Positions 28,040 through 54,818 of a stretch of 64,000 nt of DNA are shown piece after piece. The stretch lies in assembly GCF_000189635.1 (NCBI RefSeq), contig NW_002476326.1, forward strand, positions 248,001-312,000. Reading direction: 5' to 3'. Numbering within the stretch: position 1 is the first letter of the stretch; every line of letters starts with the position of its first letter. The translations under genes and the position numbers were made by a program. The notes beneath the pieces were generated by a model. That model searched no databases, was not told the DNA's origin, and worked only from the letters and a program-made list of their open reading frames with translations. Origin of the DNA: Tetrahymena thermophila SB210 (Eukaryota > Ciliophora > Oligohymenophorea > Hymenostomatida > Tetrahymenidae).

Positions 28040-30643
28040 TTAGAACTTTATTTACTTCGCTGCATTAATGAATTAAGCTAAATGAATGGTTATTGAAAAG
28101 GCTTTTGTTATTTTATGGTTAGTAAAGTATAGATAGATAGTTAGTTAGTTAGTTATTTAGTAAGTAAGTATATTTGTTTAAATTTTAGTAGTTTATTTGC
28201 TTTGTTTTTTAAGTTTTTATTATTAATATTAATATTTAGCCGTTCATATCTATAATAAAAGAAAAAAAATAGACTTTATCTATTTGTACATTAAAAAGAA
28301 AAATAAAGGTATTTAATTATTTATTTAATTTTTCTTATTCATTTTTTATTAGATATAAAAATATCGACAAACAATTTTTACACTAATTGCAAGCATTACT
28401 CCCATAAATTCTACACAAACCATTATTTAATTAACTAACTAAATAATCAATCAATCAATAACTTTATCTGATTGCCCTTTATTTTATTATTTTGATTTTC
28501 AATCATTTCTCTTTGTATTTTATTCTCTTCACTCAATATTTTATTGACTTTGTTCTTCCTATTCTTGCTTTTACTCATCCACCTTTTTTATTTTGAAATT
28601 TATCATCTCAACTTACTAAATATCTATCTATTAGATGCGATCCTTTAATTTTCGCGTTGTAATTTAAACATTATTAATTACTAATTTGAAGCAAGGAAAT
28701 TTTATCATTGAAAATACATTACATTATTTTCAATTAATAAACTCAGCATTACCTAGTATTTATCCTGAATTTTATAAGTATTCCACCACATATCAATTGA
28801 GTAAACCCATTTTTTAAAATTCAGATACTTATTTTTAAATTTAAAATAAAATAGCTAAAGATTAAGCAATCATTTTTTAAAACCAATTTCATATTTTTAA
28901 TTCATTCTAACTTTTCTTTCCATTAAAAAAATAAATTTTAGGAAATATGCAGCTATTCTTACATAATTTTTAATGGATTCTACAATTTTGTAAATTTTCA
29001 AATATAAAGATATCTTATGATTAATTTTTAAGAATCAATAATTTAACTAATTTACACTTAAAGAGTAAGATAAAAATTTAATTTACTTATTTGTTTTGCA
29101 CATACTAAATAGTATTAAGATTTTTGCACATTTGTTTTGATTTATTGTGTGTGTTCTTTAAAAGCAAATAAATAAATAAATTAATTTCTATCATCGTTTT
29201 AAAACTAAATATTTATCTAAATAAATATTTGCCAATAAACAGTTTTGAATTGCTATTTTTTTGGTTGGTATTAAATAAATTTGTAAAGTTTTTTTCATAA
29301 AAATAAAATTAATGGCTAAAAAACTTAAATAACAGAGCTTTTAACAAATAAATAGATACATACATCATTAATATAAAATTAACATCATCAAATTCTAATC
29401 AACTTAATTAAAATACATTCTATGGTAAATATATCGTTATATAATTTATTACGTAATTATTCATCATAATTATAGTTCATCCAAATAAAAGGCAAAATAG
29501 TAAGTTTAGCGAATTTCGAAATCCCAAAAAAATATTAAAATTTAATTATTTTTTCAACTTTTTGCAAGTTATGTGATAAATAAAACTATTTTTTATAAAT
29601 GAATAATTAATTTCTTTGTACACTTAGATATATTTTATTTATTTATTTATTTAATTACTATCTCTTTCCTTAAAATATCTAATTTTTAGTTTTTATCAAA
29701 CATTATCAAACAAAAAAACACTCTAATATCCTGAATTATCCAGAATTATGAGTTAAAACATGTTTTAAATAAAATATTATGTTAATTAGACATTTTAATT
29801 ACTAAAATAAAAACAATTTTATTGTAAATAATAAAATATAGTTTATTATTTAAGCAATATTTTGTTTTTTATACTTTACTGTGCTATTAATATTAGAAGA
29901 TTAAAACTAAATTTTTTAGGGTTGAATATTTAAAAGATACAAATTTTGTAAAGATATAATGTCAAATTGAATTGGTTTTAATAAAATTTGATAGATTTTT
30001 TTAATGATCAATTGCTTTGCAGATAAAAATATAATGAAATATAAATTTATATTTTTAATATTTTAGTAGAAATGTAATATCTAAAATAAAAAATAATTAA
30101 AGATTTTAAATTAAGTTATTTTCTTATTATGCAGTATTTATTCTAAAAATCTTCAATATCAATTTTCGAATAAGTTAAAAAAACTATTAATTTATTAAAT
30201 AACTGATCTATAGGAATATCAAGGAAAATATTATTAAATTAAATATTCTATTTTTATCTGCTGATTACTCAATTACTAAAATTAAATATTTTCTTAATAT
30301 ATTTTAAGAAAAGTTATATTTTAAAATTCTACTTTGAAAATTATATGAAAGTAAATATAATATATATTTGCTTATTTGAATCTTTAAAAGTAAATATGGC
30401 TGGCCATCTTTAAAAAATAAATATTTTGATTTGATCAGATAAAATATTTTTTCTTACTGTAAATTAAATATATTTTATATATTTTTTTTTGCTTTTATTA
30501 GAAATATAATAATATAAATAACTTAACTATTTTGATGTAATAAATAAATAAATTAATATAATTTAATATCTTTTTCAGATATTTCTAGATAATTGCTAAA
30601 TTCTAATTAAATAAGCTAAGTTTTTTACTAAAATTTGTTTAAG
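28040..30643. other. Long AT-rich spacer
   Basis: About 2.6 kb with no supported gene. It contains simple runs such as TAGTTAGTTAGTTATTTAG near 28140 and ATTTATTTATTTATTTAA near 29640. This is the longest apparently empty stretch apart from that inside the duplicated segments. Confidence 0.5.
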
Positions 30644-31042
30644 ATGATTGGAGAAGCATATAATATAATAGAAAAGAAGGTAGAGGAGATGGATTAAAAG
30701 ATCTATAATTAATATTAGCCATAGATTACCGAATTTTACTAAAAAAAATATGAGAAATTGTATGAATGTTTACAACCTTTAAAGCATGATTAGTAAAAAT
30801 AATATTTAGATTGTTTGAAAAAGTATGAAAAAGTTGATTTGAATATTTCTCACGCACTTGAGAATGGAAAAAATTAGTTATATAACTGCATAAATTTATA
30901 ATATTAGATCACTTAAAAACCTCCTTCTTATCAACCTAAGAATTTCTCTTTTAATCAACAAGTATAAATGTGTGCTGATGAATTTGAAAAGGATACAATT
31001 AAAGTTATTGAGAATTAGTTAAAAACTATTAAAATTGATTGA
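30644..31042 (+). CDS. Small helical Cys-containing protein (132 aa)
   Basis: Single-exon frame of 133 codons, ATG 30644 to TGA 31040-31042. The sequence is rich in Lys/Glu/Gln/Tyr and predicted helical. Cysteines lie in CLQPLKHDQQKQYLDC, LYNCINLQYQ and QMCADEFEKD; the spacing is not a canonical twin CX9C or CX3C. There is no signal peptide or membrane segment. Not recognised; the coding call rests on frame length and on amino-acid composition that stands out from the flanks. Confidence 0.6.
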
Positions 31043-31889
31043 TATTTTATCATAGCATTTTAGTATTTAAATTTAATCTATAGCAGATGATTTATTATCA
31101 GATTGCATTTTTGAACCGATGAATTAAATGTTTTCAAAATTATCTAATAATATCTCAAAATATTTGTTCAAAAAATTAAAATAATACAATTCAATTACTT
31201 GATTTCTATTTTAGAAAAGAGATTTTACTCAGAAATTTCCACAAATTATATAATATAATATAAAATAATTATAGATAAGGGAAAATGTAAACAACAAATA
31301 AATTTAACTGTAAGAAAGCACATTTCAAATTTATATAAACATTTTTGTAACATTAAACGATATATTTATTTTAACCAATATGTATATTTTTTTTATACCA
31401 ATTTTCAAACTTTAAAATAAATAGATTCCTTCAAAAATAAATAGAAAATATTGTGATTATCAAAAATATGGAAACCCATTTTATTTCTTTGAATTATTTA
31501 ATTTTAACATTCATATTATTGTATAAATGATAATTTTTTATTAGATTATGTGTTTAAAATTATTTATTTTATTCAAATAATAAAAACATTTATAAATCTT
31601 ACTTTTAAAATTAAGCTTTTAAGTTGTGATTTGTATGTATGTATGCTTAACTTTTAGATTCAGAAAGTAGAATTTGCATAGATAATATTTAATAAAGTAA
31701 TCATACGCCCACCACCTTTTTGAGCAACTTAATTAGAATAAAAATCTTTAAATCTATATGTAGTATAAAAATTAATAAGCAATTCAACTAAATAAAAAAT
31801 CATAAAAAAGCAAGTAACAAACTATACAACTTGAAATTTTTTAAACTCTTAAAAAATAATTTTAAAAAGAAATAATTAATTAATATCGC
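31043..31889. other. Spacer holding the left edge of the segmental duplication
   Basis: AT-rich, no gene. Similarity to the second copy becomes clear from about 31550 onward (for example CCCACCACCTTTTTGAGCAA at about 31708 and 42725). Confidence 0.6.
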
Positions 31890-33587
31890 ATGGAAATAGA
31901 GCAAGATAATATAATTAATTCTGTTATTAAATTGATAAAGTAAAGCGAGATTAAAGAAGCTATAAAATATCTATTATAAATAGAATAGGTCAACTAAAAC
32001 GATTTAGAAAGCTTCTTAGATAGCCAAATATTAATCCCAATTTTTTCGTATTATATATAAAAGGATGATATCTTAGATAAACATGATAGAGAAGATCAAA
32101 TATAATAGTATTACAGTCTTCTCTCTTTAATAGATAGATTAATATTGATAGATGATTAGAGAATAAACCGCATAATTATGAAATGCAATATCAAAGAGTT
32201 AATGAGCAAACTAGTTGCAATAAAGGATCCTAATTTTAGTGTTAGTGTATTTTCTTCATTATCATAATTAGCTAAATAAACGCCTGAGCTATTTTCTACA
32301 TAATTTATCTATTAACTTTAGCGCTCTTTACTTGAAAAATGTTCAAACTCTTCCTAAAGACTAGAATACTTCTTTTATATCTTTTATAATTTAAAAGATC
32401 AATCTCCTAAGTACAAAATAGATGCTTATTTCTATACTAATTTCTTAAAAATGTAATTTCAAAGCATCAAGTTGACTAAACAAAGTATAAAGTATGTATT
32501 GTCAACGTTATAGCACTTACTCAAAGAATAAGAAAATTCTGAAAGTAATACATTTAAAAATATTTTTGAAGTTGTTGCAGGATTTATGTTTCCCAGATTA
32601 TCACTTGACTATAATATTTGCAATGCTAATTTTGAAGAATGCGACTAAAACATTTAATTTGAATTCTTTTAGTTAATAAAATTATTTATGATTTACTGTC
32701 AAAACTCTGCTACTCTATTTATCTCTAAAAACATTTCTGAAATCCGAAATGTAATTACTGATATAAAAATTAAAAATTAATCAATCGCTAACGTTTGCCT
32801 AGTGTTAGAATTAATAAATGAAGCAATTAGCAGTCAAAATGAATACTCTCTTCTGATTATTGATAACTTACTGAGTTGGGAAAAATTCTAAAATGTTTTA
32901 GACGACTTAACATTTTAGAATAAGAAGGATTAAAAAGATGAATTTATAATAAGAAAAATAAAATAAGTTATTTGTGACATTTTAGTAAATATGCTAAATA
33001 AAAGTTAGGAACATATCATAGATTATTTTATAAATGAATTTCTAATCGGATAGCTTGTTGATTTGTCTACTTATCTAGATAGCAAACGTAGACAAACAGG
33101 TATAGAGGCATTAGTAAAAGTACTCACTTACTTAATGCATCAATAACCAGAAAAATTTATAATTGATTTAAATAATTAAGAAAAAAATTAAGATAAAAGC
33201 GATTTAGATTACTTATTTCCTCAGTACAAAAGTGGCAAAATTATTTTAAATTCATTGGCAGATTTGTTTGAAATGACATAATTGCCTTACGATGCAAATA
33301 AAGTTATCCCATCATATTATTTCGAAATGCAGAAATTGTCAAACAAAGTAAAAAATAAACTTTATAAGAAATTTGGAGATAAATTACCTAAATCCCTAAG
33401 AGGATAAGTAAATTAATATAATTAAAGTAACAATTAAAAACTTAAGAAAGTTAATATTTAAGAAAACTAAGACGAATGGGAGGATGTTTCAGAAGATAGC
33501 TAAGAAGCAATTAACAATCTTCATGCAATTATAGTTGATTAGTTTAATTTACAAACAAAGTAATCAGATGAAAGTTATGAAGAGTGA
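31890..33587 (+). CDS. Alpha-solenoid (ARM/HEAT-like) protein, intact copy (565 aa)
   Basis: Uninterrupted 566-codon frame, ATG 31890 (MEIEQDNIINSVIKLIKQ) to TGA 33585-33587. Almost wholly helical with regularly spaced Leu/Ile, for example VFSSLSQLAKQTPELFSTQF and IANVCLVLELINEAISSQNE, consistent with an ARM/HEAT-type superhelix. No specific family was recognised. The C-terminus is acidic (DEWEDVSEDSQEA, DESYEE). No signal peptide or membrane helix, so probably a cytosolic scaffold. A degenerate, truncated copy lies at 42908-43892. This copy has no frame break and is taken as the functional one. Confidence 0.75.
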
Positions 33588-36176
33588 CCAAAAAATATTT
33601 TAGAAAAAAAAAACAACAATTTTTGTTTCTAAATATGAAATTTTCTAGCAATAATAATATTTAAATACTTTAATTTTAAACATAAAATTATTAGATGAAA
33701 ATTCTAAGAGTAAAAAATTTTAAACATATTATTTTTGTAAGAAATTCTTCAATATAATTTAGAATTTGAATTAAAGTTTTAATTATTTATGATAGAAATA
33801 TGAAATTTTTATATATTTGATTGTTTGTTTTTAATTTATTTATTTATTTATTATTTATATTTTTATCTGTAAACAATTTATTTTCAAAAAATTTTAATTG
33901 ATATTTTTTCATAATTAATGTAAAAACAAACATAATATTTTAAATATTTTATTTGTATATTTCAATAACACTTTTTATCGATTAATTAAAAAGTAATTCT
34001 CTTTATAAATATCATCTATTATTTTACTATCCTTAGAAAATAATTATGTTATTTATTGTTTTAATTTATTCTTAAATGTTAGTTTAGCTTTAAATTGTAA
34101 AATAATCCAATCAATCTTTTATTTTTAGTTTTCTCACCTTTTTCCGCAATATCATTAGTTATTTTTTATCATAATAATTTAATTGAGGTTATTTTACTTA
34201 TTTATTCTATTTTAAAAAGTATATTAGAATGTATTTTTGCTTATTAAAATTCTATTTTATTAACTATTTTAAATTTTCAAAATATATTTATGGAAAAGCA
34301 AATTTAAAGAACAAACATTTAAGCTTTTTTAGTAATCCAATCTATCCTCAAAGTTTTAATTTAATATTAAAAACAAGCTAATTTTTTTCTTAATTTTGTA
34401 TTTTTAAAAATATTTTCAAAATTATTTTTTTTAAGTTGGATAAATAAGAATAAAATAAATTATTAAAAATTGCTTTAATTTTAATGAAACATCTAAAATC
34501 ACATTTTTAAAACACAAGGAGATTTAATTTCGGCAGATAATTAAATAAAAAATATATATAATGATGTAATTATATTTTTTTAATTGTATCAAAATTAAAA
34601 TTTATGATTTATTTTTGCATTTGTTAGATAGGAAATGTCATCAGTAAAAATTAAGTTAAGTGTTTGGTTGTAATGTAAACTCTTAAGACAAGTATTTTTA
34701 GTCAAGAAAAATATTGATTTATATTAGAATAGAGAGTTTTATCTTTGTTATTATTTAAATATTTAACTAATTATTCGCCACAAGAAAAAATCCAAATTAT
34801 ATTAATAATCTTTACATTAAGAAAAATGTTAATTAACCTTATAAAAAGTTATTACTAATTATCGTAAATGGAAGATATTGAATTTTGCAAAAAATAAACC
34901 TTGCCACAATAGTACAATTGAAAGTATTATTTTGTTAAAATATATATTTCAGTTATGCTTTAGCTAAAAAATTTTATTTAGAGAAAACTTAAAGTTATCT
35001 AAAATCAGAATAAAAATATTACACAGTTAGTACTTATTTAGTATTTGAGTGCACGAGTGTTCTGGGAATCTGGGAATGTGGGAATTTTGAAAAATAGTTT
35101 TTCTTATAATGATAAAATTTCAAAAACTATCTGATAATTATGATTTCAAAATGAATGGAATATGATTTAATTCAAATAATCCAAAAGTCTGTATTTTTTT
35201 TATTTAGTTTAAAATAAGAAACATCTTAGCCTTTTTGCTTAGTTATAGCCTTATTTGAAACTAATCAATTAAATATGAGCTAATAGTTTAATCTTTATAA
35301 AATTTAATGATTTGTTATTTGAAACCAATAAATTAGTTTGATATAATTTTAAATAATAACATCCTTTCAATTTATATAAAAGGGTATTCTTATCATATTA
35401 TTTATCAAAACTTATTTCGTTTCAATTTTGTTGTAAAATAATAAATTTTTTATTAAAAATCAGTAGTATTTTTAAATTATTTACTTTCAATAAATGTTTT
35501 TGAATTCTATTTATAGTAGTTTTTCTTTATCGAATAAATTATAATTTTTTTAGTTAATAAGAAGAAATAAAAAATATCAGTCAACAATTTTTCTGGTAAG
35601 AGTTAGATATTTATTTATGGCTAAATAATAAAAAGCTACTTTTTTATTAAAAAAATAGATTCCTTTAAATTCCTCTATAAAATGTGCTAAGTATACAAAG
35701 TTCCTTCAAAATCCTTAGTCAACGCATTACATTTTAATAAAAGTCTTACAAAATAGACATTATCTATTAAATGCACACATGAAATTCATTACTTGAAAAA
35801 TTTTTTTATAGTACCCTAGGTTACTGACTTTTTCAAGGCTACATACACGAATAATAATAATTATAATAATATATTATATTTTTTACTTTTTTTTATAAAA
35901 AAAAAAAGGTTTGCTGTTTAGAGCAAAACTTGTTTTATGTGTTTATATAATTATTTTTTCAACATTTTGCTTGATAAATAATTGAGATAAGATTGATAAA
36001 TATAAAATTCAAACTTATTTTTACTGAAGATTAATATTTCTGTGTAATATGCTATATTAAAAACTTTACTTCCAAGCGAATCTTTACTCTTTATTTGGTT
36101 ATTTAGTTCCTTTAAAATCTAAATGTTGTTTTTAAAATTTTTTATGAATAAATTAATTAACAAAATATTTAATTTA
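33588..36176. other. Spacer inside duplicated segment A
   Basis: About 2.6 kb of AT-rich DNA that aligns patchily with 43893-46208. It includes a short GGGAAT-type minisatellite at about 35060-35085 and a stretch of about 130 bp at about 35812-35945, neither found in copy B. No gene is supported. Confidence 0.5.
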
Positions 36177-39100
36177 ATGTTTGCTTAAAAAATACTAAGT
36201 TTCTTTTTTTTCTCACATATAATATGTTTTTCTAATTAAGAATAAAGCTAAAAGAGCTTTTCTTATTGGAGATAAACTTAAGGTCTTAAAAGTTATTCAC
36301 TTTGTGGTGGTGTCTAAAATTGTGAAATATGTGAGTTTTAATTCTGTTTGAAATGTACTGATATTAGGGTTCTTCCTTCTTGAGGTTGCCCTTAAGGATT
36401 TATAGAAATAAGTGGAAATTGCACAAAATGCCCAGATAGTTGTTAAAATTGTTCAGACAGCAATACATGCATCATTTCTAACTAATAATATACATTAAAT
36501 AACGGGCAATGCACTTGTAACAATGCCTTAAGTGGATGTAAATTTATTTATTTTGTCAAACTCTCTTTGAAAATTATTTTTTAAAATAATAGCTGTATGT
36601 AGTGATCCGTTAATTCTTACTTATTATAAATTTATAAGAAGTGATTTATAATCTGTACAAATCAATTTTAGTGATAATATTAGAATATCTGGAATTGATG
36701 AATCTAAGTAATTTTAAATGCTATTAAGTAATTGCATTATTTTAGGTAAAACAACGATTGCTATTTATAGATTAGCATCTAATTCTTAACAAAATGCTGG
36801 ATGTTATATAAATTAAAGTCATTAAAATTAGTTTATAATTGCTATTGGTAAATATTTATTTTAATAAAATTATTTTAACATTATATTTGTTAATTAACTA
36901 TAAAAATCAGGTTAACAATATGATAAAGTTGGTATCTTACAACCTCCTTAGATAATTCAAAATTTAATAATAAGCTACAGAAATGGATAAATTAACCAAG
37001 TAAATTCTGTGTTATCAAATTAAGCTGGAGTTTTAAACTAATTAAATTAAATAAGTAAATCTTGCTATTTTTAGAATAATAAAATTGAAATAGGCGTACC
37101 TTTTACTCCATCAAGTATTAAAATTGTTACTATAGTTAACTAAAATAATGTAGATGTTTAATGTAATTTGGTGTCTAACTCACAATAAGACAGATAATTA
37201 CCTTTTTCCTGTACTAAATCTTAGTTATAGTTTGATTTGAAAAATTTTTTAAAAGGAACAAAAATAATAATCCAAGTAGTTTGTATAAATATTTTTTAAA
37301 TGGTAACAAGTGACCAAATTTAAATATCTCTTACTGATGAAGATAATCAAATAAATATAAATAATCTCAAATCAATACTCCAAAATTACAATTTTAATAC
37401 TAAAATTCCTTTAGCTTTTTCAATATGATGTACTCATCATCTTCTTAATAGTAAGAGTTTATTGTTAATATAAATTCTTATCCTTAATTATTTACTCCTA
37501 TTTCTGTTAAAACTGAAAATCTGGGATATTAATTTGATATTCCACCAAACTCAGTAACATAAGATACTTATGTTTAATTATAGGTATTTAATTAATTAAT
37601 CATTTTATAATATTTTTTGCAATACTTCAATTTGTTTTTAAGTAATAATATGGCAAATTAAAATCTAAATAAATTTCAAAGCTGAATAGAAAAGAATAAA
37701 AAAGATTCAAATAAATATCTTAAAAATATAATTTTATTAATTTATTAATTTTAATAAACAAAATATTCAGAAAATTATTTTTTTTTCCATTTAATTAATA
37801 ATTTAAAAATTTTTTTAGTGAAGAAAAAATGATGACATTTTGCTTAAAAGTGAAAATAATAAAAATTTAAATTAAAAATATAATTTTAAAGTATTAAATA
37901 AAAAATCTTCATTAAATTTTTAAATTTAATTATTTTATTAAATAGGTTTCTGTAAGTAACACTCAATAAACTGTATAAACTGTTGAATACTTTTAGTTTT
38001 ACTATCAAAGCTAATTTTAATTATCTATTCTTTAAAAAGGTCCAATCATAAATTTTAATCCATCTTAAAGTTTAACTTTAAATGCTTAACTTATTGATTC
38101 AAATTATGCAACAACAGATGCAAATTAATTTTTAATCCAGTGAGTCTGCATGGATACAAATAATCTACCATGCCAGTAAAGTAATGGAGCTCTAATTGTT
38201 TTAAATTCTGGTTACTAGTTGGATTTTCCTAAAAATCTATTAAGTTTGAATAATAACTACAATATTTATGCTATTGCTACAAGAAATTCTGATTTTACAA
38301 ATACTTAAAAGGCTGGCATAAGCATATAAACTATATCTGCTCAGTTACTTTATACTATTTAAAATCAGTAATATCCCAGCTCTATAACTGTTTCTTATCA
38401 AGATATAATTTCAGTGTATCTAGGTTATACTTTGAATAATACACTTATTAACTATACAGTCAGAATATTTAAAGATAAATACACAATGAGGAGTATATAT
38501 TCCAATTCAAGTGCTATTTCATTTAGTATCTAAGATTACTTTCCCAATCTAAGCTTTTCAATTAATTCAATAACTGACTTAACTGTGCAATTCTAAGCTA
38601 CGGATACATACTATTAGTCTACAATTGCTTCTACTACTCAACTAGATGTTAAATACGTAATCCACCCTAGTAATGCAGTCTGGGATTCAGTAATTCTTTT
38701 AAATTTTATTAAATTATTAATTTTTTTGAAATTGGAAAATCTTTTTTTTTAAATACTTCTAATTAATTAAACAAATTAATTATGACGAATTAAAAAATAA
38801 TAAATTTTTATTTTGTTAATTTTATTTAGGTGGTTCAAATAGTTTTAATGGATTCAAATACTTAATTACAGTTTTTACTATTAACTGCTAATTTGATTCT
38901 TAATATTAACCATACACATACCAATACTTCTATTACTAAAATAATACTCAACTATAATAAGAGATTTAAAATCCTTAAATAATAAATAGACAAGAATTAA
39001 GCTTAGTTTAAAGTAATTCTTAAATCATAACATATTTCCTCCAGGTAATATTACAATAATGGTGGTTGTGCAAGGCTAATACTCAGTTCAAGCAAATTTT

Positions 39101-41826
39101 ACTTAATATGTATAAGTTAATGATAGTGGCTTTGGTCAATCTGAATATGAAAATTTTATATAAGACCAATATTCTAAGGCTCTATAATATCAAGATTAAA
39201 GTTAAGAACTGATTAATTATCAAATGATTTCGATTGCTATTCAGTATTATGAAATTAAATAACCCTAGTATTAACAGCCATAGAGTGTTAATACATTAAA
39301 AAATAACATTATTTAAAGATTATAAGATGCCTCTTGGTCTATACTGAGTCAAGACGTACTTTTACTTTCATAAAAAACTACTTCACAAATTTCTTAATCT
39401 AAAATTCAAATGAGCCCTGCTTTATCTTAAACTTTAAAGGCTTAAAATTAAAAAATTATAAATGATGTATCATAAGAAATATCAATTGCAGATTAATCTA
39501 CTTTAACAAGCTCTCAAAAAAATTATTACTAATAAATTTTAATCAATACTTTTTTGAATTTTGTGAAAAATGTTAACTCTATAAACAGTTGGACAGCTTG
39601 AGATTGCTAAAATATGATTGATCAAACATCTAAATCTTTAGATGGAATTTCTCAAACTATGGCAGTAAATTAAGCTCCTATCATCTTATAAACTATGGAA
39701 TCTGTGATAACTGTTGAAAAATTAGATTACACGAATTTACTCAATAAATATTATAAAGGCAGTAGTGCTTCAGGTCAACCATCTGATAATAAAGTAAATG
39801 CTAATTATTATGTTTAAATGCAAACATACCCTACTTCTAGTCATGTCTATAGAGATGAACTTTCATAAATTAATCAATAATATAAAAATCAAACCTCCTC
39901 ACAATAAATATTAAATTTGCTTAATAAGACATATCCTGTAAAAATTCCATCCATAAAAACTGATGTAAAACCATCAAGAAGAAGAAGATTCTTAACTTTA
40001 TACCCTACTCAATCAGATGTTCCTATAGAGATCTAATTTGGGTAAATTACTGCTGAAGAAAAGTTAACATGTATTTAGCGTTCTGCGAGTGGTAAATGGG
40101 TATCAAACAGTTGCAGTGCATCAGTTTAAGTAATAGATAATCAAAGACATATAAGTTGCTCATGCAAAACACCTGATGTAACTTCATTGATAGCAGATAT
40201 TGAATAGCTTTTTGATAATGAAAATCTTAAAGATCTTTTCGATGGGGATGGAATAGAAAGACTTATACACTTAACTGATTGGTACAAGTATGCACCAATT
40301 TGGACTATTATAGGTTTAAATATATTGTTGATTGTTTTAGTAATTGTTGGGTGTAAACTTGATAAAAGAGATACATTAAATATTGCAAATAAAAAATACC
40401 AATTAACAAAGCTTGAAGAAATTTAATAAATAAAAAAATTAAAAATTTACCTTAAAAAAAACATCAAAAAAAGCTAAAAATTTTTTTATTATGGTAAAAA
40501 ATAATGAAAAAATAATAGATAAGTTATCTTAATTAGAAATGATAAAACAAAACATTTACTAAGAGGCTAAGTAAAATGAAAAATAAGAAAATTAGTTGGT
40601 TAAAGAAAATAGCAATCAAATGATTCTAACTTTAAAAAAATTTTCAAATTTTCAACTTGAAAAGAAATAAATCATAAATGCATCAAGCTTTGAAAATAAA
40701 GATTGCGAGATGTAGAATTTCAATGAATTAGAAAAAATTAAAAATTTTGGTAGTAAATAGTAAGATAGAAACACTAAATCATTGAACTCTAAAACCAGCT
40801 ATGAAACAAAATAAATGACTCCAATGAGTTAACAATATATTTAAAACCCATAGCCAGCAGATGACAAATAATCTCACTTATATTTGGATATTTATTCAAT
40901 TAAATATGATGGTTAATAAGAAAATAACGGCGAAGTTGAGGTACATTCAAAATAAGTGAGCTTAAAAAATTTATTTAATAACAAAACTCCTTTAAATAAT
41001 CAAAAAATTCTTATTGAAAGTTAAAAAGAATAACATTTGAATTCGAAATAAACACTTTTAATATAAAAATAGCTTGATAATTATCAAAATTAGCAATAAT
41101 CTAATAAAGTTTGTAAATCATAGTAACAATAATTATAAAGTACCATTTAAAATAAATTAGAGGATTCAACTCAATAAAATATCTTACTAAATGATGAAAA
41201 TATGTTATAAAAAAATAAGAGCAAATAGGATTAAAAAAAACAATAAAAAGAAGAAGAAGAAAAGCTCAAATTGTAAAAAGCAAAAGAAAAGCTAGATGAA
41301 TATTTAAAATTAGAAAGTTCGGTGAAAGGAATCATTGCTTTTCACATATTTCTCTCAACTTTCATTATTTATGACCAAAAATTTTCTCGTGCAATAAGAT
41401 TTATAATTTACTATAATAAAATGGTATGGCTTTTGGCATTAAATTCAGTCTATAGAGTAAATATTAGCTTAGTTTAAATAATTATTCTGAGTATTACATC
41501 AACTATTGTCCTGCTTATTGTAACTACAATACTTATAGCTTTGCTTTCAAAAAAAAAGTTAAAAATCATCGGCTTAGTAATTACTTTTCTATTTTTACTA
41601 TTTTGTTATTATAGTATTTTTATTTATTTCAGAATTGAATCCTAAGTAAGCTAATATTTGGATAGGCTCTTATTTTTTAACTCTATTTATTAATGAGTAT
41701 CTAATAGGGATCCCTATTTGCTGCTTAATGTATTAGGCAGCTAAAAAAATAGTTAGCAAAGTTTAGAATCCAATTATTTTTTAAATTATCGGAGCAGGAC
41801 TACTTATAGAAGCATTTAAAAATTGA
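36177..41826 (+). pseudogene. Decayed Cys-rich/REJ/GPS receptor (copy A)
   Basis: Close homologue of the intact gene at 46209-52024, with the same exon order and an identical first-exon length (36177-36537). It is broken in several places. In-frame TGA occurs at 36381-36383 (TGT Cys in copy B), 38141-38143 (TGG Trp in B) and 39599-39601 (TAA Gln in B). There is a scrambled, frameshifted stretch with TGA near 37426. One-base indels lie near 38651 (AAA versus AAAA), near 40480 (extra T in the juxtamembrane region) and near 41620 (within the C-terminal membrane helices). The Cys-rich region, GPS-like motif and membrane segments remain recognisable. The number of independent lesions argues for a pseudogene rather than sequencing error, but reads would be needed to prove it. 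Confidence 0.82.
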
Positions 41827-42907
41827 TTTTTTAAATAAAAATAAATTCTTTAATATTTTTTGATATATTTTTTGGTGAAATTATTATTACTTGTTAGTTG
41901 TTTAAACATTAATTTATTCTTTGACTTTATATCATTTATAACTATCATCTGTTAATTATTTTGTGAGAAAGGACTATATATTTAGTTGAATAATAGATCT
42001 TATTTAATAAAATAAAAAAAAAAATTATTTTTAAATAAATAAAAGATTTTGAAGCAAGTTTACAAACTGATAGAAGATAAAATAATGAAAAAATTTTTAA
42101 TCTAAGATTTTATTTTAGATTTCTTTGTTTATTTAGGTCAGAAACCTATCTCAATAAATTTTTTTATAATTTAAAAATTTTATTTAATATATAAAATACT
42201 ATTTATTCCTTAGTTAGTCATTGATGTTATTAATAAATTACAATAATAAAAGTAGATCGTAAATTTTTAATAAAATTTTCCATTCATTTTTGTAAACAAT
42301 TACTTTTTAAAAAATATATATGAATAACTCCCTTAATTTTCGAATGCATAACTCAAACTATGATTTATATATTAATTTATATAAGAAAATAGATAGGTTT
42401 CCATAATTTTGAAATCCACTATAAATATCTGATAGAAATTATTTGCTAAAGTGTATCTAAAATTATTTATTTTTTTCAAATTAATAAAAACTTTTTGTCA
42501 ATCTTACTTTTAAAAATATTCCTTCTAAAATTAAACTTTTAAGTTATGATTTGTATTCTTTAAATTTAAATAAGCTTCATGGTAACCGACCCTTTAAAAT
42601 ATTTTCATTTAGCTAAAATAAAAGTAAAGTTAAAAAGTTGCTTTAGTAATTTACACTTATTCAATTTAAATATTACTTTTGAAAGTAGAATTTGAATAGG
42701 TAATATTTAATAAAGTCAGCATACTCCCACCACCTTTTTGAGCAACTTAATTAGAATAAAAATCTTTAAATCTATATATAGTATAACAATTAATAAGCAA
42801 TTCTTCTAACTAAATAAAATCATAAAAAAATAAAAAAGTAAATAAATAACTTGACATTTTTTAAACTCTTTAAAAAAATAATTTTAAAAAGAAATAATTA
42901 AGATAGT
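41827..42907. other. Junction between duplication copies
   Basis: Holds the 3' flank of copy A (to about 42205), a short unique stretch, and the 5' flank of copy B (from about 42450). AT-rich, no gene. Confidence 0.55.
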
Positions 42908-43892
42908 ATGGAAATAGAGCAAGATATAATTAATTCTGTAATAAAATTGATAAAGTAAAGCGAGATTAAAGAAGCTATTAAATATCTATTATAAATAGAG
43001 TAGGTCAACTAAAACGATTTAGAAAGCTTCTTAGATTGCCAAATATTAATCCCAACTTTTTCATATTTCATATAATAGGTGATAGCTTAGATTAAAGTGA
43101 TAGAGAAAAACAAATATAATAGTATACAGTCTTCTCTCTTTAATAGAAAGATTAATGGTGATAGATGATTTTATGAAATGCAATATCAAAGATTAATGAG
43201 CAAACTAATTGTGATAAAGGATCCTACTTTTAGTGGTAGTATATTTTCATCATTATCATAATTAGCTAAATCAACCCCTGAACTATTTCTACGTAATTTA
43301 TCTATTAACTTTAGCGCTATTTACTTGAAAAATGTTCAAACTCTTCCTAAAGATTAGAATACTTCTTTTATATCTTTTATAATTTAAAAGATTAAGCTCC
43401 TAAGTACAAAATAGATGCTTATTTCTATACTAATTTCTTAAAAATGTAATTTCAAAGAATCAAGTTGACTAAACAAAGTATAAAGTATGTAGTGTCAACT
43501 AAAGATTAAGAAAATTCTTAAAGTAATACATTTAAAAATATTTTTTAAGTTGATGCAGGATTTATGTTTCCCAGATTATCACTTAACTATAATATTTGCA
43601 AAGCTAATTTTGAAGAAAGTGACTAACATATTTAATTTGAATTCTTTTAGTTAATAAAATTAATTATGATTTACTGTCAAAATTCTGCTACTTAATTTAT
43701 CTCCAAAAACATTTCTGAAATCCGAAATGTAATTACTGATATAAAAATTAAAAATTAATCTATAGCTAATGTTTATCTAGTGTTAGAATTAATAAATGAA
43801 GCAAATAGCAGTCAAAGCGAATACTCTCTTCTGATTATTGATAACTTATTGAGTTGGGAAAAATTCTAAAATGTTTTAGATGACTTAAGATT
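42908..43892 (+). pseudogene. Truncated, frameshifted copy of the alpha-solenoid gene
   Basis: Begins with the same start (MEIEQD) as the gene at 31890 and stays similar for about 980 bp. Frame is lost early, around 43075-43130, where several small deletions occur relative to copy A (for example TAATAGGTGATAG against AAAAGGATGATATC). Other one-base differences follow. Similarity jumps at about 43892 from a position equal to 32910 in copy A to one equal to about 33750, so the 3' half and stop are deleted. A functional product is very unlikely. Confidence 0.85.
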
Positions 43893-46208
43893 TCTCCAAT
43901 TTAGTTTAAAATTTGAATTAAAGTGTTTTATATATATATAAATATGTAATTTTTATTTATTTATTTGATTATTTGTTTTAAATTTATTTATTATTAATAT
44001 ATATTTTTAGTTGAAAATAATTTCCTTTCAAAAATATTATTTTTTTTTAAATAATTTTTTATTAATCATGTTAAAATTTAAGTATTTTAAATATTCTATT
44101 TGTATATTTCAATATCATTTTTATTTATTATCTAAGGTCTGATGGGTAATGCTTTTCATAGTAGCAATATCATTTATTATTTTAGTATCCTAAGAAAATA
44201 ATTTTGTTATTGAGATATTACCTTTAATTTATACTTCAGCGCGTTGGTTTAGCTTTAAAATGTAAAATTATTTAATCAAGCTATTTTTAATTTTCTCACA
44301 TTACTCTAAAATATCATCAATTATTTTTTTAACACAGTAATTTAATTTAGAGTATTTATTTATTTGTTCTATTTCAAATAGTATTTTAGAATGCATTTTT
44401 ACTATTAAAATTGTATTTTATTTGCTATTTTAAATTTTCAAAATACTTTAAAAATATTTTCATAACTATTATAATTAATTTAAGTTGGGTCAAAAAGTAT
44501 AAAATATATTATTTATAATAGCTTTAATTTTAAAGAATAAATAAATACAATTACATTTAGAAAGCAACATAATATATTTTATATTAAATATTTAATTTCT
44601 ACATATTATATTAATAGGCAAATTTTAGATTAAGAAATATAATGAAATAATTGTTTGTTTAATTGAATTAAAATTAAAATTATTTATTCATTTTTTAGAT
44701 AGAAAATTTGTTACAGTGAAAATTAAGTTATGTATTTGGAGACAATATAAATTGTATCAAAATTAAAATTTTTTATTAACTTTTGCATTTTTTAAAAAGG
44801 GAAATTTCTTCCCAGTAAAAATTAAGCTAAATATTTAGTGGTAATGTAAAATCTTAAGACACATATTTTAAGTCAAGAGATTTATTAATTTATATTAAAA
44901 ATAGAAAGTTTGTGTTTTTGTTATTTTTTACTCATTTAATTAATTTTTCGTCACAAGAAAAAATCAAAAATTTAATTGTAATCTACATTCAAAAGAATGT
45001 TAATTAGCCTTTTACACCTAATTACTTACTAATTATCGTAAATGGTAAATAGAAACTTTTTGAATTTTGCAAAATAATAACCTGATCACAAAAATGTTAT
45101 TGAAAATATTTCTTAATATACATATTTTAGTATGCAATGCTTAAAAAAATATTTAAATAAAATAAAACTATCGTACTTTACCAAAGTAAAAGTTTTACCC
45201 AGTTCGTACTAATTTAGTAGTATATTTTTAATGCTTTTAGATTATAAAAATACCATTGTTTTTCATATAAATATTAAATTTCAAATATCCAATAAATATA
45301 ATTTAAAAGTGGAATATGTTTTAATTCAATAATTTTAAAGATCAGCATACTTTTTTAACTTAGCTATAAATATAAAAATAAGAAATTTCTTAGCATTTTA
45401 ACTTAATTATGACCTTATTTGAAACTAATTAATTAAATATTATCTAGTAATTGTATCTTTATAAAATTTAATGATTTTTTATTTGTATCCAAAAAATTAG
45501 GTTGATATTCTTTTATATAAAAACACACTCTGAATAGTCAGAAATGGATATTGTTATCATATTATTTATCAAAACAAACTTATTTAGTTTTAATTTTATT
45601 GTAAAATAATAAAATATTTCTTGAAAATTAGTAGCTATTTCTAAATTATTTACTTCAATAAATGTTTTTGAATTCTATTATTAATTACTAATCATTTTTC
45701 TCTATCAAATGAATCATCCTTATTTTAGATTTATAAGAATTAAAAAAATATGAGTCAACACTTTCTATGATAAGTGTTAGATATTTATTTGTGGCTAAAT
45801 AATAAAAAGCTTATTTATTATTAAAAAAATCGATTCCTTTAAATTCCTCTATAAAATGTGTTAAGTATGCAAAGTTGTTAAAAATGCATTAATATTCACA
45901 TTGCATTTTTATAAAGTCTTGCAAAATGCGCTTATTATCAATTAAATACACACATGAAATTCTTTATTTGAAAAATTGAAAAATAAATTTGAATATTTTG
46001 CTTGATTTATAATTGAAATACGATTAATAAATACGCATCGAACTTATTTTTACTGAAGATTAGAATCTATGTAATGTGAAATATTAAAAACTAAATTTAA
46101 GTTCGAGCAAATTTTTACACTTTATTTGCTTATTTAGTTGATTTAAAATCTTAATGTTGATTTTCAAAAATTTTAGGTAATAAATTAATTAAAAAAATAT
46201 TTAATTTA
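43893..46208. other. Spacer inside duplicated segment B
   Basis: AT-rich DNA aligning with 33745-36176 of copy A. It contains no gene; the upstream promoter of the intact receptor should lie near its right end. Confidence 0.5.
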
Positions 46209-49200
46209 ATGTTTGCTTAAAAAATACTAATTTTCTTCTTTTTCTCACAAATAATCTGTTTTTCTAAATAAGAATAGAGCCAAAAGGGCTTTTCTTATTT
46301 AAGATAAACTTAATCTTTGAAAACTTATTCACCTTGCGCTGGTATCTAAAATTGTGAAATATGCGAGTTTTCGGTCTGCTTGAAATGTGCTGATGGAAGG
46401 GTTCTCCCTAATTGTAATTGCTCTTAAGGATTTATAGAAGTCAATGGAGTTTGCACTAAATGCCCTGATAATTGTTAAACTTGTTCAAGCAGCTCTACAT
46501 GTACAACTTGTAACTAATAATATACATTAAATAATGGGTAATGCACTTGCAACGATGCCTTAAGTGGAAGTAGATTTATTTATTTTGTCTAACGCTCTTT
46601 CAAAACTATTTTTTTAAATAATAGCTATATGCAGTGATCCATTAAATCTTACTTTTAATACATTTATAGGAAGAGATTTAATATCAGTACAAATCAATTT
46701 TAGTGATAATATTAGAATATCTGGAATTGATGAATCTAAGCAATTTTAAATGCTCTAAAGTAATTGCATTATTTTACATTAAACAACTCTTGCTAATTAT
46801 GGATTAGCATTTAATTAATAAAACGCTGGTTGCTATATAAATTAAAACCATTAAAATTAGTTTATAATTGTAGTAGGTAAATATTTATTTTCATAAAAAT
46901 TATTTTAATCATATATTTGTTAATTATAATTATCAGGTTAACAATATGATAAAGTTGGTATCTTACAAACTCCTAAGTTAGTTACAAATTAAATACTAAA
47001 TTACAGAAATGGATAAGTCAAACAAATATATTCTGCATTAACAAATTAAGTAGGGATTCTAAACTAATTAAATTAAATAAGTAAATCTTGCTATTTTCAA
47101 AATAATTAAATTGAAATAGGCGTACCATTTACTCCATCAAGCAGTAAAACTGCTACCATAGTTAACTAAAGTAATTTAAATGTTTAATGTAGTTTGATTT
47201 CTAACACGCAAGCAAACCCAACATTACCTTTTTCCTGTACTTAAACTTAGTTAAAATTTGACTTGAAAAATTTCTTTAAAGGGACAGTAATAACAATCTA
47301 AGCAGTTTGTACAAATATTTTTTAAATAGTAACAAACGACCAAATTTAAATATCTCTTACTGATAAAGATAATCAAATAAATATTCTTAATATTAGTAAA
47401 TTACTTTCAAATTATAATTTTAATTCTAAAATTCCTTTCGAACTTTCATTAACTCACACACCATCTTCTTCAATGTTAGATTTTGCTGTTAATATAAATT
47501 CTTATCCTTAAATATTTACTCCTATTTCTGTTAAACCTGAAATCATTCTATATGAATTTGATATTCCTCCAAATTCAGTTACATAAGACACTTATGTTGA
47601 ATTAAAGGTATTTATTTAAATTCATAATTTTTTTTTTTTTTTGCAATATTACTTACAACTTGTTTTTAAGTAAAAATATGAAGAAAAAAAAAAGAAATTA
47701 AAAACTGAATAAATTTTTGTGCTGAATAAAATAGAATAAAAAACGCTTTAAAATCTCAAAAATCTATTCTTCAATTTTCCATAATAGCTATTTTCTAAAT
47801 AAATTCATTCAACAAACAAAATATTCAGAAAATTATTTTTTTATTTATTTTTAAATAAAAATTAATCTTTAAATTTTTTTTTTGAAGAAAAATAAGCTTG
47901 CATTTGCTTGTTGCTTAAAAAGTGAAAAATAATAAATAATAATTTACATAAAAAAAATAATTTTAAAATTTTTAATAAAAAAGCTATATAAAATTTTTAA
48001 TTGAATTATTTAATTAAATAGGTTTCTGTAAGCAACACTCAATAAACAGTATAAACTGTTTAATACTTTTGGTTTAACTATCAAAGTTATTTTCAATTAT
48101 CTCTCCTTTAAAAAACTCCAATCATAAATTTTGATCCATCTTAAAGTTTAACTTTAAATGCTTAAGTTATTGATTCAAATTATGCGACAACAGACACAAA
48201 TTTGTTTTCAATTTAGTGGGTCTGCTTCGATACAAATAATCTACCATGCCAGTCAAGTAATGGAGCTCTTATTGATTTAAATTCTGGTTATGAATTGGAT
48301 ATGCCAAAAAATATATTAAGTTTGAATAGTAATTACAATATTTATGCTATCGCTTCAAGAAATTCTGATTTTACAAATACTTAAAAGGCTATCATAAGCA
48401 TATATACTATACCTGCTCAGTTATCTTATACTATTTAAAATCAGTTATCTCCCAGCTCAATAACTGTTTCTTATCAAGATATAATTTCAGTGTATCTAGA
48501 TTATACTTTGAATAATACACTTATTAACTATACAGTCAGAATATTTAAAGATAAATACACAATGAAGAGTATGTATTCCAACTCAAGTGCTATTTCATTT
48601 AGTATCTAAGATTACTTTCCCAATCTAAGCTTTTCAATTAATTCACTAACTGAATTAACTTTGCAATTCTAAGCTATGGATACATACTATTAGTCTACAG
48701 TTGCTTCTCCTACTCAACTAGATGTTAAAATACGTAATCCACCCTAACAATGTGGCTTCGGATTCAGTAATTCTTTTATAATTTATTTCTTAAAAAACAT
48801 TTAAATTTACTAAATTATTAAATTTTTTGAAATTGAAAAATGTTTATAAAAAAATATTTATCCAAATAAATACTTCTAAAATTAATTAAATTTTTTATTT
48901 AATAATAAAATTAAACAAATCAATTATTATGGTGAATTAAAAAATAATTAATTTTTATTTTTGTTAAATTTATTTAGGTGGTTCAAATAATTATAAGGGA
49001 TTCAAAGATTAAATTACAGTTTTTGTTAATAGCTGCTAATTTGATTCTTAATATTAACCATACACATACCAATACTTCTATTACTAAAATAAGACTCAAC
49101 TATAATAAGAAATTGAAAATCCTTAAATAATAAATAGACAAGAATTAAGCTTAGTTTAAAGTAGCTCTCAGATCATCACATATTTCCCTCCAGGTAATTT

Positions 49201-52024
49201 AACATTAATGGTGGTTGTACAAGGCTAATACTCAGTTCAAGCAAATTTTACCTCAATTTTAGAAGTTAAAGATATTAACTTTGATCAATCTGAATATGAA
49301 AATTTTATATAAGACCAATATTCTAAGGCTCAGTAATAGCAAGATTAAAATTAAGAACTAATAAATTATCGAATGATTTCAATTGCTATTCAGTATTATG
49401 AAAATAAATAACCATAGTATTAATAGCCAGAGAATATTAATACATTAAAAAATAACATTATATAAAGATTATAAGATGCCTCTTGGTCTAAACTAAGTTA
49501 AGACGTATTATTGCTTTCCTAAAAAATTACTTCACAAATTTCTCAATCTAAAATTCAAATGAGTCCTGCTTTAGCTTAAATTATAAAGGCTTAAAATGAA
49601 AAAACTATTAATGATGTATCATAAGAAATATCAAATGCAGATTAATCTACTTTAACTAGCTCTCAAAAAAATAATTATTAATAAATTTTAAGCAATACAT
49701 TATAGAGTTTCGTGAAAAGTGTTAATTCTATAAACAGTTGGACAGCTTAAGATTGCTAAAATATGATTGATCAAACATCTAAATCTTTAGATGGGATTTC
49801 TCAAACTATGGCAGTCAATTAAGCTCCTATCATCATATAAACTATAGAATCTGTGTTAACAGTTGAAAAGTTAAATTACTAGAATTTACTCAATAAATAT
49901 TATAAAGGTAGCAGTATTTCAGGTCAAACATCTGGTAATAAAGTAACAGCCAATTATCATGTTTAAATGCAAACATACCCTACTTCTAGTCATGTCTATA
50001 GAAATGAACTTTCATAAATTAATGAATAATATTAAAATAAGACCTCCTCTTAATAAATATTAAATTTGCTTAATAAAACATATCCTGTAATAATTCCATC
50101 CATAAAAACCGATGTAAAACCTTCAAGAAGAAGAAGATTCTTAACTTTATACCCAGCTTAATTAGATGTTCCTATGGAGATCTAATTTGGGTAAATTACT
50201 GCTGAAGAAAAGTTAACATGTATTTAACGTTCAACAAGTGGAAAATGGGTAGCAAACAGTTGTAAAGCTTCAGTTTAAGTCATAGATAATCAAAGATAAA
50301 TAAGTTGCTCATGCAAAAAACCTGACGTAACTTCATTGATAGCAGATGTTGAATAGCTTTTTGATAATGAAAATCTTAAAGATATTTTCGATGGGGATGG
50401 AATAGAAAGACTTATACACTTAACTGATTGGTACAAGTATGCACCAATTTGGACTATTATAGGTTTAAATATATTTTTGATTGTTTTAGTAATTGTTGGA
50501 TGTAAACTTGACAAAAGAGATAAATTAAATATTGCAAATAAAAAATACCAATTAACAAAGCTTGAAGAAATTTAATAAATAAAAAAATCAAAAAGTTACC
50601 TTAAGGACGATATCAAAAAAAGCTAAAATCTTTTTATTATAGTAAAGAATAATGAAAAAATAGTAGAAAAATTATCTTAATTAGAAACGATAAAGCAAAG
50701 TGTTTACTAAGAGACTAAGGAAAATGAAAAATAAGAAAATTAGTTGGTTAAAGAAAATGGCAATTAAATGATTCAAACTTAATAACAATTTTCAAATTTT
50801 CAACTTGATAACGAATAAATCATACATGCAGCAAGTTTAGAAAATCAAGATTGTGAGATTTAGAATTTAAATGAATTAGAAAAAATTAACAATTTCGATA
50901 GTAAATAGTAAGATAGAAACACTAAATCATAGAACTCTAAAACCAGCTAAGCTAATATAGAAACGTAGCAGCAGTGTGAAACAAATCAAATAACTCCAAC
51001 TAGTTAACAATATATTTAAAACCCCTAACCAGCAGATGACAAATAACCACACTAGCACTTGGATATTGATTCAATTAAATTTGATTGTTAGTAAGAAAAT
51101 AGCGGTGAAGGTGAAGTACGTTCAAAGTAAGTGAGCTTAAAAAATTTAGTTAGTAACGAAACTCCTTAAAATAATCAAATACTTATTGAAAGTTAAAAAG
51201 AATTAAAAATAGGTTCAAAATCAGATTAAAATTTGAATTCAAAATAAGCATTTTCAATATAAGAATAGCTTGATAATGATCAAAATTAGTAATAATCAAA
51301 TAATTGTTGTAAATCAGAATAACACCAATTATAAAGTACCATTTAAAATCAATTAGATGGCTAAACTCAATAAAATATCTCACTAAAGGATGACAACATG
51401 CAATAAAAAAATATGAGCAAAAAGGATTTAAAAAAATAATAAAAAGAAGAAGAAGAAAAGCTCAAATTATAAAAAGCAAAAGAAAAGCTAGATGACTACT
51501 TAAAATTAGAAAGCTTGGTGAAAGGAATCTTTGCTTTTCACATATTTCTCTCAACTTTCATAATTTACGACTAAAAATTCTCTCGTGCGATAAGATTTAT
51601 AATTTACTATAATAAAATGATATGGCTTTTGGCGTTAAATTCAGTCTTTGGAGTAAATATTAGTGTAGTTTAGATAATTATTCTGAGTATTACATCAACT
51701 ATAGTCCTGCTTATCGTAACTACAATACTTACAGCTTTGCTTTCAAAAAAAAAGTTAAAAATCATCGGCTTAATAATTACTTTTCTATTCTTACTATTTT
51801 GCTATTATAGCATATTAGTAGTTATTTCAGGATAGAATCCTTAGTAAGCTAATATTTGGATAGGCTCTTATTTTTTAACTCTATTTATTAACGAGTATCT
51901 CATAGGGATACCTATTTGCTGCTTAATGTATTACACAGCTAAAAAACTAGTTAGCAAAGTTGAGAATCCAATTATTTTATAAATTATCGGAACAGGGCTA
52001 CTTATAGAAGCATTTAAAAATTGA
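46209..52024 (+). CDS. Cys-rich/REJ/GPS multi-pass receptor, polycystin-1-like, intact (1691 aa)
   Basis: Five phase-consistent exons: 46209-46569, 46625-46876, 46937-47607, 48022-48766 and 48978-52024, 1692 codons in all. Residues 1-20 or so form a signal peptide (MFAQKILIFFFFSQIICF). Residues about 40-125 are a furin/IGFBP-like Cys-rich module (CEICEFSVCLKC, CTKCPDNCQTC). A long Asn/Ser/Gln-rich ectodomain follows, with a REJ-type Trp-Cys near residue 490 (WVCFDTNNLPC). At about residues 1090-1115 there is a GPS-like motif (CIQRSTSGKWVANSCKAS, then CSCKKPDVTSL). One membrane helix lies at about 1160 (IWTIIGLNIFLIVLVIVG). A cytosolic Gln/Asn/Lys-rich region of about 330 residues leads to several C-terminal helices (LKIIGLIITFLFLLFCYYS). 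PLAT and the channel pore of animal polycystin-1 were not seen. The GPS cle­avage His-Leu/Thr is not conserved (Asp-Val-Thr), so self-cleavage is doubtful. Likely a surface adhesion or sensory receptor; ligand unknown. Confidence 0.8.
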
Positions 52025-52594
52025 ATTTGATAAATAAAAATAAACTCTTAAATATTTTATTATATTTTTTTGGTGAAATTATTTTTACCTGTGAGTTTTG
52101 AAACATTAATTTATTATTTGACTTTATATCATTTATAATTATTCTATGTTAATTATTTTGTGAGTAAGGAATATATATATAGTTGAATAACAAATGTTAT
52201 TTAATATAATAAAAAAAAATTTTAAAGAAATAAAAAAAGGTTTTGAAGCAGGTTTCGAACCTGATAGAAGAAAAAAATAAGTAAAAAATGTGTAATCTAA
52301 GATTTTATTTTTTACTTTTTTTATTTATTAGGTTTGAAACCTATTTGATTACATTTTTTTATAATTTTTAAACTTTATTTAATTTATAAAATAACGGTTA
52401 TTTATTATTCTACTAAATATTTATTTCCTTCGTGAAATAATTATTTGGGAATAATTATAATGTTTCTATAACTTTATTTTTCCTAATGAGAAAAAAATTT
52501 ATTGAGTTAATTTAAAAAGCTTTTTACTTAAAAATATAATTTATTGATTGTAGCTGATATTATCAATCCATTTAAAAAAAAAAATTACTTAAAA
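52025..52594. other. Spacer with an imperfect palindrome
   Basis: End of the duplicated segment and 5' flank of the next LRR gene. It includes the inverted repeat at 52240-52370 annotated separately. Confidence 0.5.
52240..52370. repeat. Imperfect inverted repeat (hairpin) at duplication edge
   Basis: Left arm holds AGGTTTCGAACCT (about 52244) and AAAAATAAGTAAAAAAT. Right arm holds ATTTTTTACTTTTTTTATTT and AGGTTTGAAACCT (about 52351). The arms pair over most of their length around TCTAAGATT. In copy A (about 42045-42160) the same region is mutated (AAGTTTACAAACT and AGGTCAGAAACCT). Confidence 0.6.
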
Positions 52595-54215: not shown

Positions 54216-54818
54216 TCAATATAGAATTGCGAAAACAATCAAACCAAGAGAGTAGACTAAATATACAGAGCTCAAGCTTGAGATAGAAGCAGAATTAGTC
54301 TTGTCTTCTCTTAAATTACCATTTGGTTTATTCTCAGTTTATGGCTTGTTATCAGGTTGAGTTTCTGGCTTATTTTCAGGATTAGATACAGGCTTATTTT
54401 CTGGTTTAGTTTCAGGCTTATTTTCAGGTTAAGTATCTGGCTTATTTTCAGGTTTAACATCAGGCTTTGGTGGTTAAGGTGTAACCTCAGGCTTGGTATT
54501 AGGTTCAGAACCCATAGCTTCTTTATGACATTTAATCTCAATATCAATCTTATCTTAGAGGATTTCACGTTTGGATTTGCATTTAGATTTAAAGCATGAA
54601 ATTCTATTTGCAAAAGAATCATTATCATCCTTACAATCGCTAATGCAATCATTAATTTTGTCTTATTCTTCACTGCATTCTTCATAAGTTTCATCATCAA
54701 ATTTACAGGTTTTAGGCTTATTATCAGTGCGGCATTTGATATATTTATCAGTGTCGTCTTTAGTCTTTACATAAGAAAGAGCTAATAAAACTAGTAGAGC
54801 AAAGGTTATAATCCTCAT
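54216..54818 (-). CDS. GPI-type Cys-rich surface protein, copy 1 (200 aa)
   Basis: Single exon, ATG 54818-54816 to TGA 54218-54216. Signal peptide MRIITFALLVLLALSYV. A domain of about 90 residues has eight cysteines, including DCISDC (CX3C) and CFKSKC (CX4C). It is followed by a Pro/Lys/Glu/Asn stalk of repeats like KPENKPETQPDN. The C-terminus has a small-residue site (SASISSLSS) and a hydrophobic tail (VYLVYSLGLIVFAILY) that ends at the stop, the pattern of a GPI-attachment signal. Expected at the cell surface. One of four near-identical genes, head-to-head with copy 2; copies differ mainly in stalk length. Distantly reminiscent of ciliate immobilisation-type surface antigens, but much smaller and without proven relationship. 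Confidence 0.8.

Follow-up and report, generated by a model that had tools for sequence, protein, structure and literature searches.

Reciprocal gene loss, also called divergent resolution of duplicates, is reportedly the subject of work by Scannell et al. 2006 and by Lynch and Force. At the Tetrahymena locus presented here, likewise, opposite copies have been lost and the working genes have changed their relative position. In reciprocal gene loss, the same gene is lost in different lineages, whereas here two genes of one tandem block in one genome are concerned. A related process is the fractionation of duplicated multi-gene blocks, which is usually discussed after whole-genome duplication and between chromosomes. 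There, too, each gene returns to one copy and the genes are split across two blocks; unlike the usual cases of fractionation, the present locus lies within 21 kb and its relics are still readable. Concerning single genes, DPY19L2 in human low copy repeats has an ancestral copy which is silenced and a descendant which is active (PMC1475853). A functional gene likewise moves via the silencing of one duplicate, but that case comprises one gene and repeats on two chromosomes, in contrast to the two genes, one tandem duplication and complementary losses found here (PMC1475853). In Tetrahymena, tandem duplicates are found at high frequency and under relaxed selection, as stated in PMC6564038. Section 8 of that paper treats tandem-gene frequencies and not, as here, the decay of a block, and a term search of its main text gave 0 occurrences of 'pseudogene' and 'gene loss'.

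The locus is a well-preserved complementary loss in a tandem block, which is a known kind of event and an ordinary outcome of duplication. The case is compact and readable: two neighbours within a single tandem block show opposite losses, and the relics can be roughly dated. It also illustrates that synteny can loosen without any rearrangement beyond the duplication itself. For annotation it is a warning, as the 12.6 kb between the working genes are mostly relic or intergenic DNA with long meaningless open frames. A search of titles and abstract openings found no published account of the locus, which is not proof of its absence from print.

The duplicated unit and its junction

The window, i.e. 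the whole stretch of DNA that was analysed, comprises 64,000 bases (248001-312000 of the 597-kb contig C206) with 0 N; the genome searched has 101.0 Mb in 445 contigs. GC content is 17-28% in 2-kb windows, and TGA has to be the sole stop (code 6) for the genes of the window to read open. Together with a telomerase RNA on C67 that by eye agrees with the one of T. thermophila, these features indicate Tetrahymena thermophila. The window contains no tRNA and no structured RNA at Rfam gathering scores.

Comparison of the window with itself (self-blastn) gave collinear direct matches between two head-to-tail copies of a unit (Table 1). Three of the six matches have an E-value of 0 and the others 6e-111, 7e-28 and 8e-15, so that chance is ruled out for the series as a whole. 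The homology extends over introns and intergenic DNA, and the copies, being adjacent and collinear, constitute a tandem segmental duplication. The tandem two-gene duplication claimed in the initial annotation is borne out by both this series and the global alignment; the bounds of the copies had been well placed, with the starts now corrected to 31549 and 42452 and the spacer to 42199-42451.

Table 1. Features of the duplicated unit and of the window (window coordinates)
Feature	Position	Strand	Remarks
Left copy of unit	31549..42198	+	self-blastn, global alignment
Right copy of unit	42452..52393	+	self-blastn, global alignment
Self-match, weak edge	31549-31636 v 42452-42556		76% identity
Self-match	31663-32915 v 42681-43893		89.5% identity, gaps counted
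Self-match	33745-34284 v 43892-44445		77%
Self-match	34403-34667 v 44447-44739		70%
Self-match	34582-35802 v 44750-45977		76%
Self-match	35957-42198 v 45988-52393		85.6%
Junction spacer	42199..42451	.	253 bp; matches neither unit edge
Insertion in 5' flank of dead helical copy	42557..42680	.	124 bp; sequence comparison
Helical gene, working copy	31890..33587	+	one open frame, code 6, 565 aa
Helical gene, dead right copy	42908..43891 (start about)	+	frameshifted at four 1-bp deletions; 3' end lost
Receptor-like gene, dead left copy	36177..41825	+	three in-frame TGAs, seven frameshifting indels
Receptor-like gene, working copy, exon 1	46209..46569	+	hydrophobic start, Cys-rich (15 Cys in residues 40-121)
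Exon 2	46625..47607	+	splice reading of right copy
Exon 3	48022..48766	+	splice reading of right copy
Exon 4	48978..52024	+	juxtamembrane block with Cys, a single TM-like segment, Gln-rich stretch, further TM-like segments in a C-terminal block
Small-gene copy	54216-54818	-	open
Small-gene copy	56111-56695	+	open
Small-gene copy	57778-58356	-	open
Small-gene copy	3' part of 59706-60860	+	open

At aligned bases, coding DNA of the two copies is 89-94% identical, and introns and most intergenic DNA 79-81%. By part, the differences amount to 6.4% in the helical coding part, 10.8% in the receptor coding part, 18.8% in the introns, 15.8% in the receptor 3' flank, 10.3% in the helical 5' flank and 20.8% in intergenic DNA, the last with a 318-bp patch of the right copy (44422-44739) set aside. 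In the global alignment this patch is 48% different from the left copy; a gapped local match reaches 70%, and the DNA surrounding it is collinear.

Two short sequences at the junction match loci elsewhere. Within the spacer, 42263-42386 is 85% identical to C399:2539-2671, which we take to be the flank of a gene reading like catalase; a weaker match (78%) is found on C193. Within the insertion, 104 bp (42572-42675) are 93% identical to C13:166799-166906 on the opposite strand, the sole other match found and presumably the start of a gene reading like porin. Both sequences, whose matches are at unlinked loci, look like captured filler DNA. The DNA 5' of the left edge (30400-31548) gave its self match and 5 further matches (best 74%, on C17), which are weak and AT-rich and give no indication of the mechanism of duplication.

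The two genes and their relics

The first gene of the unit carries 'helical-repeat' as a putative label only, as it has neither a Pfam match above cut-off nor a PDB sequence match. Its left copy is intact, in agreement with the initial annotation (31890-33587, 565 aa, stop-free in code 6), and a protein search of the 101-Mb genome (E up to 1) found no second complete copy. All three matches of this search lie in the window; one is the full gene, and the other two are parts of the right copy that overlap each other. The right copy had been described as frameshifted and 3'-deleted, and this is what we find: there are four frameshifting 1-bp deletions, three in-frame deletions (3, 18 and 15 bp) and a gap at 43891, where 831 bp equivalent to 32914-33744 are missing. 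The gap comprises 674 bp of helical coding sequence and 157 bp past its end. The deleted part was not found elsewhere, the DNA of 33000-33500 giving 1 match in the genome.

Concerning the receptor-like gene, the initial annotation called 46209-52024 intact; this region does read as 1711 aa, but only once three introns are removed. The four exons sum to 5136 nt with 0 internal stops, and the introns (55, 414 and 211 bp) follow GT-AG. For the first intron, the candidate 46587-46624 broke the frame and 46570-46624 was adopted instead. Its position agrees with a break between matches in the paralogues L026 and L027, where the protein match is also interrupted at residue 117 and the next piece begins 52-64 bases on. 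The predicted protein has a TM-like segment at residues 1187-1205, the Gln-rich stretch and further C-terminal TM-like segments.

The left receptor copy is broken by TGAs and frameshifts, as had been read before. The in-frame TGAs are at 36381, 38141 and 39599, and the frameshifting indels at about 36865, 36895, 37426, 38650, 39037, 40476 and 41620; four in-frame indels are also present. One more candidate frameshift, which falls on the final base of the stop codon, was rejected as an alignment ambiguity, the left copy still having TGA there. The left copy retains its start codon and each of the six dinucleotides at the splice sites. Protein search recovers this copy in pieces only, and two of the three pieces have TGAs inside them. 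Disabling lesions thus number 10 in the left and 0 in the right receptor, and 5 in the right and 0 in the left helical gene, counts that are partly circular because an open copy is defined by having none. Based on several independent lesions in each, the left receptor and the right helical copy are predicted to be pseudogenes.

The receptor-like gene belongs to a large family. Genome-wide, at least 54 stretches match, often several per gene, and the window accounts for 4 of these; the count is a lower bound, as 46 of 229 candidates were scored. The stretches are clustered on contigs C91, C140, C327 and C148, and one tandem array of three paralogues (L025-L027) is located at C91:786000-808500, with last-exon open frames of 961-1168 aa. 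Given so large and clustered a family, the retention of a copy at the present locus is not self-evident. Based on alignments of 8 and 10 members and on TM-like windows, the receptor and its paralogues share an N-terminal Cys-rich part, a juxtamembrane Cys block, a TM segment and a C-terminal TM block. N-terminal matches to the receptor are found in 8 of 9 paralogue loci. Over the aligned parts of the family alignments, mean column identity is 60% in the C-terminal TM block and 51% in the juxtamembrane part.

'Receptor' is accordingly a putative name for this predicted layout and not for a function. Neither Pfam, at its cut-off, nor the PDB sequences gave a match to the gene; Furin-like_2 appears in exon 1 below cut-off only. 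Among the 8 and 10 family members scanned, each Pfam model matched at most one member (best E 0.0026), and no PDB chain matched either of the two family profiles. The Cys block before the first TM-like segment may resemble a GPS motif. A GPS/GAIN-type (polycystin or adhesion) receptor was considered and is not supported, the curated models of GPS, REJ and polycystin domains matching neither the exons nor the 8 and 10 family members.

Selection on the gene pairs and similarity between the copies

The following history is proposed. A unit of about 10 kb, in which the receptor-like gene lay 2.6 kb downstream of the helical gene, was duplicated head to tail; the ancestral order is most simply read as helical gene first, receptor second. 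Purifying selection would have continued to act on the two receptor copies, and probably on the two helical ones, through much of the period that followed. The right helical and the left receptor copy would then have become pseudogenes by ordinary stops, small indels and the one 831-bp deletion, leaving one working copy of each gene, the helical gene on the left and the receptor on the right, with the relics between them. We regard as highly probable a duplication followed by late loss of the receptor copy and pseudogenization on opposite sides, with no special cause for the choice of copies. As the initial annotation had stated, genes that would have been adjacent are now separated with relics between them: the working genes are 12.6 kb apart (33587 to 46209), compared with about 2.6 kb before. 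It had also spoken of reciprocal decay. Opposite copies are indeed lost, but the word implies too much: random loss of one copy per gene gives a reciprocal result half the time, and in one quarter of cases it removes both inner copies. The pattern itself can therefore be explained without selection.

Selection was assessed with a pairwise codon model under the ciliate code. If one copy had been neutral since the duplication, a pairwise dN/dS of at least 0.5 would be expected. For the receptor pair dN/dS is 0.359 (dS 0.26, dN 0.093; 1685 of 1712 codons, stop included); values of 1 (2dlnL 90.2) and 0.5 (2dlnL 10.07, p = 0.0015) are both rejected, and the bootstrap range is 0.296-0.438, with 0 of 300 replicates at or above 0.5. 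For the helical pair dN/dS is 0.301 (dS 0.16, dN 0.049; 322 of 566 codons). Here a value of 1 is rejected (2dlnL 15.2) and 0.5 is rejected weakly (2dlnL 2.84, p = 0.09); the bootstrap range is 0.162-0.565, with 11 of 300 replicates at or above 0.5. Each pair is thus constrained (0.36 and 0.30), although these pairwise values are not branch-specific.

The paralogues are too distant as an outgroup for branch-specific dS, and were used to polarise the amino acid differences. At 90 scorable receptor differences, the consensus of up to nine paralogues has the residue of the right copy in 33, that of the left copy in 24 and neither in 33. Stricter thresholds gave right-to-left ratios of 14:8, 12:7, 8:4 and 7:3, and the excess is non-significant at all five thresholds (p 0.29-0.39). 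By region, the ratio is 6:11, i.e. reversed, in the first 700 codons, 18:10 in the middle and 9:3 in the C-terminal region. Family-invariant columns are retained in 139 of 155 cases by the right receptor and in 131 of 152 by the left. The polarisation thus leans towards a slight excess of change in the dead left receptor, as expected if it died late. The open copies are probably expressed and functional. It had been proposed that selection kept one working copy of each gene; the asymmetry of lesions and the dN/dS below 1 suggest indirectly that selection kept the open copies open, but the pattern of losses does not need it.

Gene conversion could have kept parts of the copies similar, in which case the age would be underestimated from divergence and the timing blurred. 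We consider this possible but unproven, and on balance doubtful, as the hints are marginal. The helical dS of 0.16 (0.095-0.247) is lower than the receptor dS of 0.26 (0.219-0.307), and third-position differences number 27 of 322 in the helical gene and 216 of 1684 in the receptor (p = 0.025); the dS difference is itself marginal, however, as it vanishes or changes sign in 9 of 300 replicates. The helical 5' flank is little diverged and the longest run of identity is 91 bp. Non-coding differences are uneven along the unit (CUSUM p = 0.0002), much of this being driven by the patch at 44422-44739, but third-position differences are not significantly clustered in either gene (CUSUM p = 0.31 and 0.27).

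Position of the dead copies and timing of loss

The two dead copies are neighbours and both lie at the junction, which raises a positional cause, namely that the inner copies died as each adjoins the new junction. The unit begins 341 bp upstream of the start codon of the helical gene and extends about 370 bp past the stop of the receptor. Upstream of the right helical copy, only about 340 bp of DNA were native, and a 124-bp insertion later interrupted these about 230 bp before the start, and the left receptor lacks its native downstream neighbourhood; the outer copies retain their native outer flank. Also, the two sequences matching other contigs lie here, one at the junction and one in the 5' flank of the right helical copy. 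Against this, loss of both inner copies is expected by chance in the quarter of outcomes given above, and the whole upstream region of the left receptor is retained. Moreover, the dead helical copy has a well conserved proximal 5' flank, with 23 differences in 223 bp compared with 401 in 1929 bp of intergenic DNA, patch excluded (p = 1e-4), or 548 in 2236 with the patch included (p = 3e-7). The promoter of this copy would thus probably have worked for a long time, unless the flank was homogenised by conversion. We therefore judge a positional cause unlikely, and the place of both dead copies, in a single case, is at best a hint of positional bias. A general form, in which the inner copies of multi-gene tandem duplications die systematically because the junction (truncated flanks, captured fragments) weakens their regulation, is something we would not expect to hold; if true, complementary loss would be a structural default of tandem blocks and would drive neighbouring genes apart.

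For the preferred history of ordinary loss on opposite sides, the timing was estimated with an indel clock based on 2849 aligned non-coding bases of the unit (the patch at 44422-44739 and the helical 5' flank left out). The copies differ there by 53 indels, and those of a length not divisible by three amount to 14.0 per kb over both branches. The left receptor has 7 frameshifting indels in 5079 bp, which corresponds to a neutral share of its branch of about 0.20 (0.08-0.40), assuming equal indel rates in coding and non-coding DNA; a lower coding rate would make the true share larger. For the right helical copy the share is 0.58 (0.16-1.48) and rests on 4 events. According to PMC6564038, Tetrahymena genes present in one or two species have median Ka/Ks values of 0.25 and 0.30, and more widely shared genes have 0.03-0.07. 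Based on dN/dS, the neutral share of the receptor would be 0.29 if the functional value is 0.25, and 0.65 if it is 0.05.

Immediate decay, with one copy of each gene dispensable and drifting since the duplication, would be in line with the several disabling lesions in each dead gene and is hardly excluded by the helical data. For the left receptor, the dN/dS of 0.36, below the floor of 0.5, and the neutral share of 0.08-0.40 from frameshift density both disfavour immediate death, and we hold such a history to be very improbable. Since dN/dS is below the floor and the density of frameshifts is low, the data fit a loss of the receptor copy well after the duplication, not at once. The late-loss signal of the helical gene is weak. 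By the point estimates the receptor would have been lost after the helical copy, with overlapping intervals. Decay after duplication, as first described, stands in that both broken copies are confirmed, but the decay of the receptor was probably not immediate.

It is hardly credible that one locus was assembled twice, as split alleles, or that base-calling errors make working copies look broken: some single-base indels do lie in or beside short homopolymers, but the window is free of N, introns and intergenic DNA are 19-21% divergent, the non-coding DNA holds the indels counted above, and homopolymers do not typically produce errors such as the three TGAs, the 2- and 4-bp indels or the 831-bp deletion.

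Elsewhere in the window, two sets of degenerate direct repeats are found, one at 15991-17008 and one at the right end (62169-63999), where the repeats are several hundred bases each. An open frame of 634 aa is located at 1646-3550; it has paired Cys/His motifs in its C-terminal part, which presumably reads like a Vps18-type RING protein. Just downstream of the duplicated unit, 54216-60860 contains four copies of a small gene in mixed orientation. Counted from a signal-peptide-like start that they have in common, they encode 192-201 aa; at least the first 17 residues are the same in all of them, and the flanks differ. In contrast to the two genes of the unit, this gene is open in all four of its copies.
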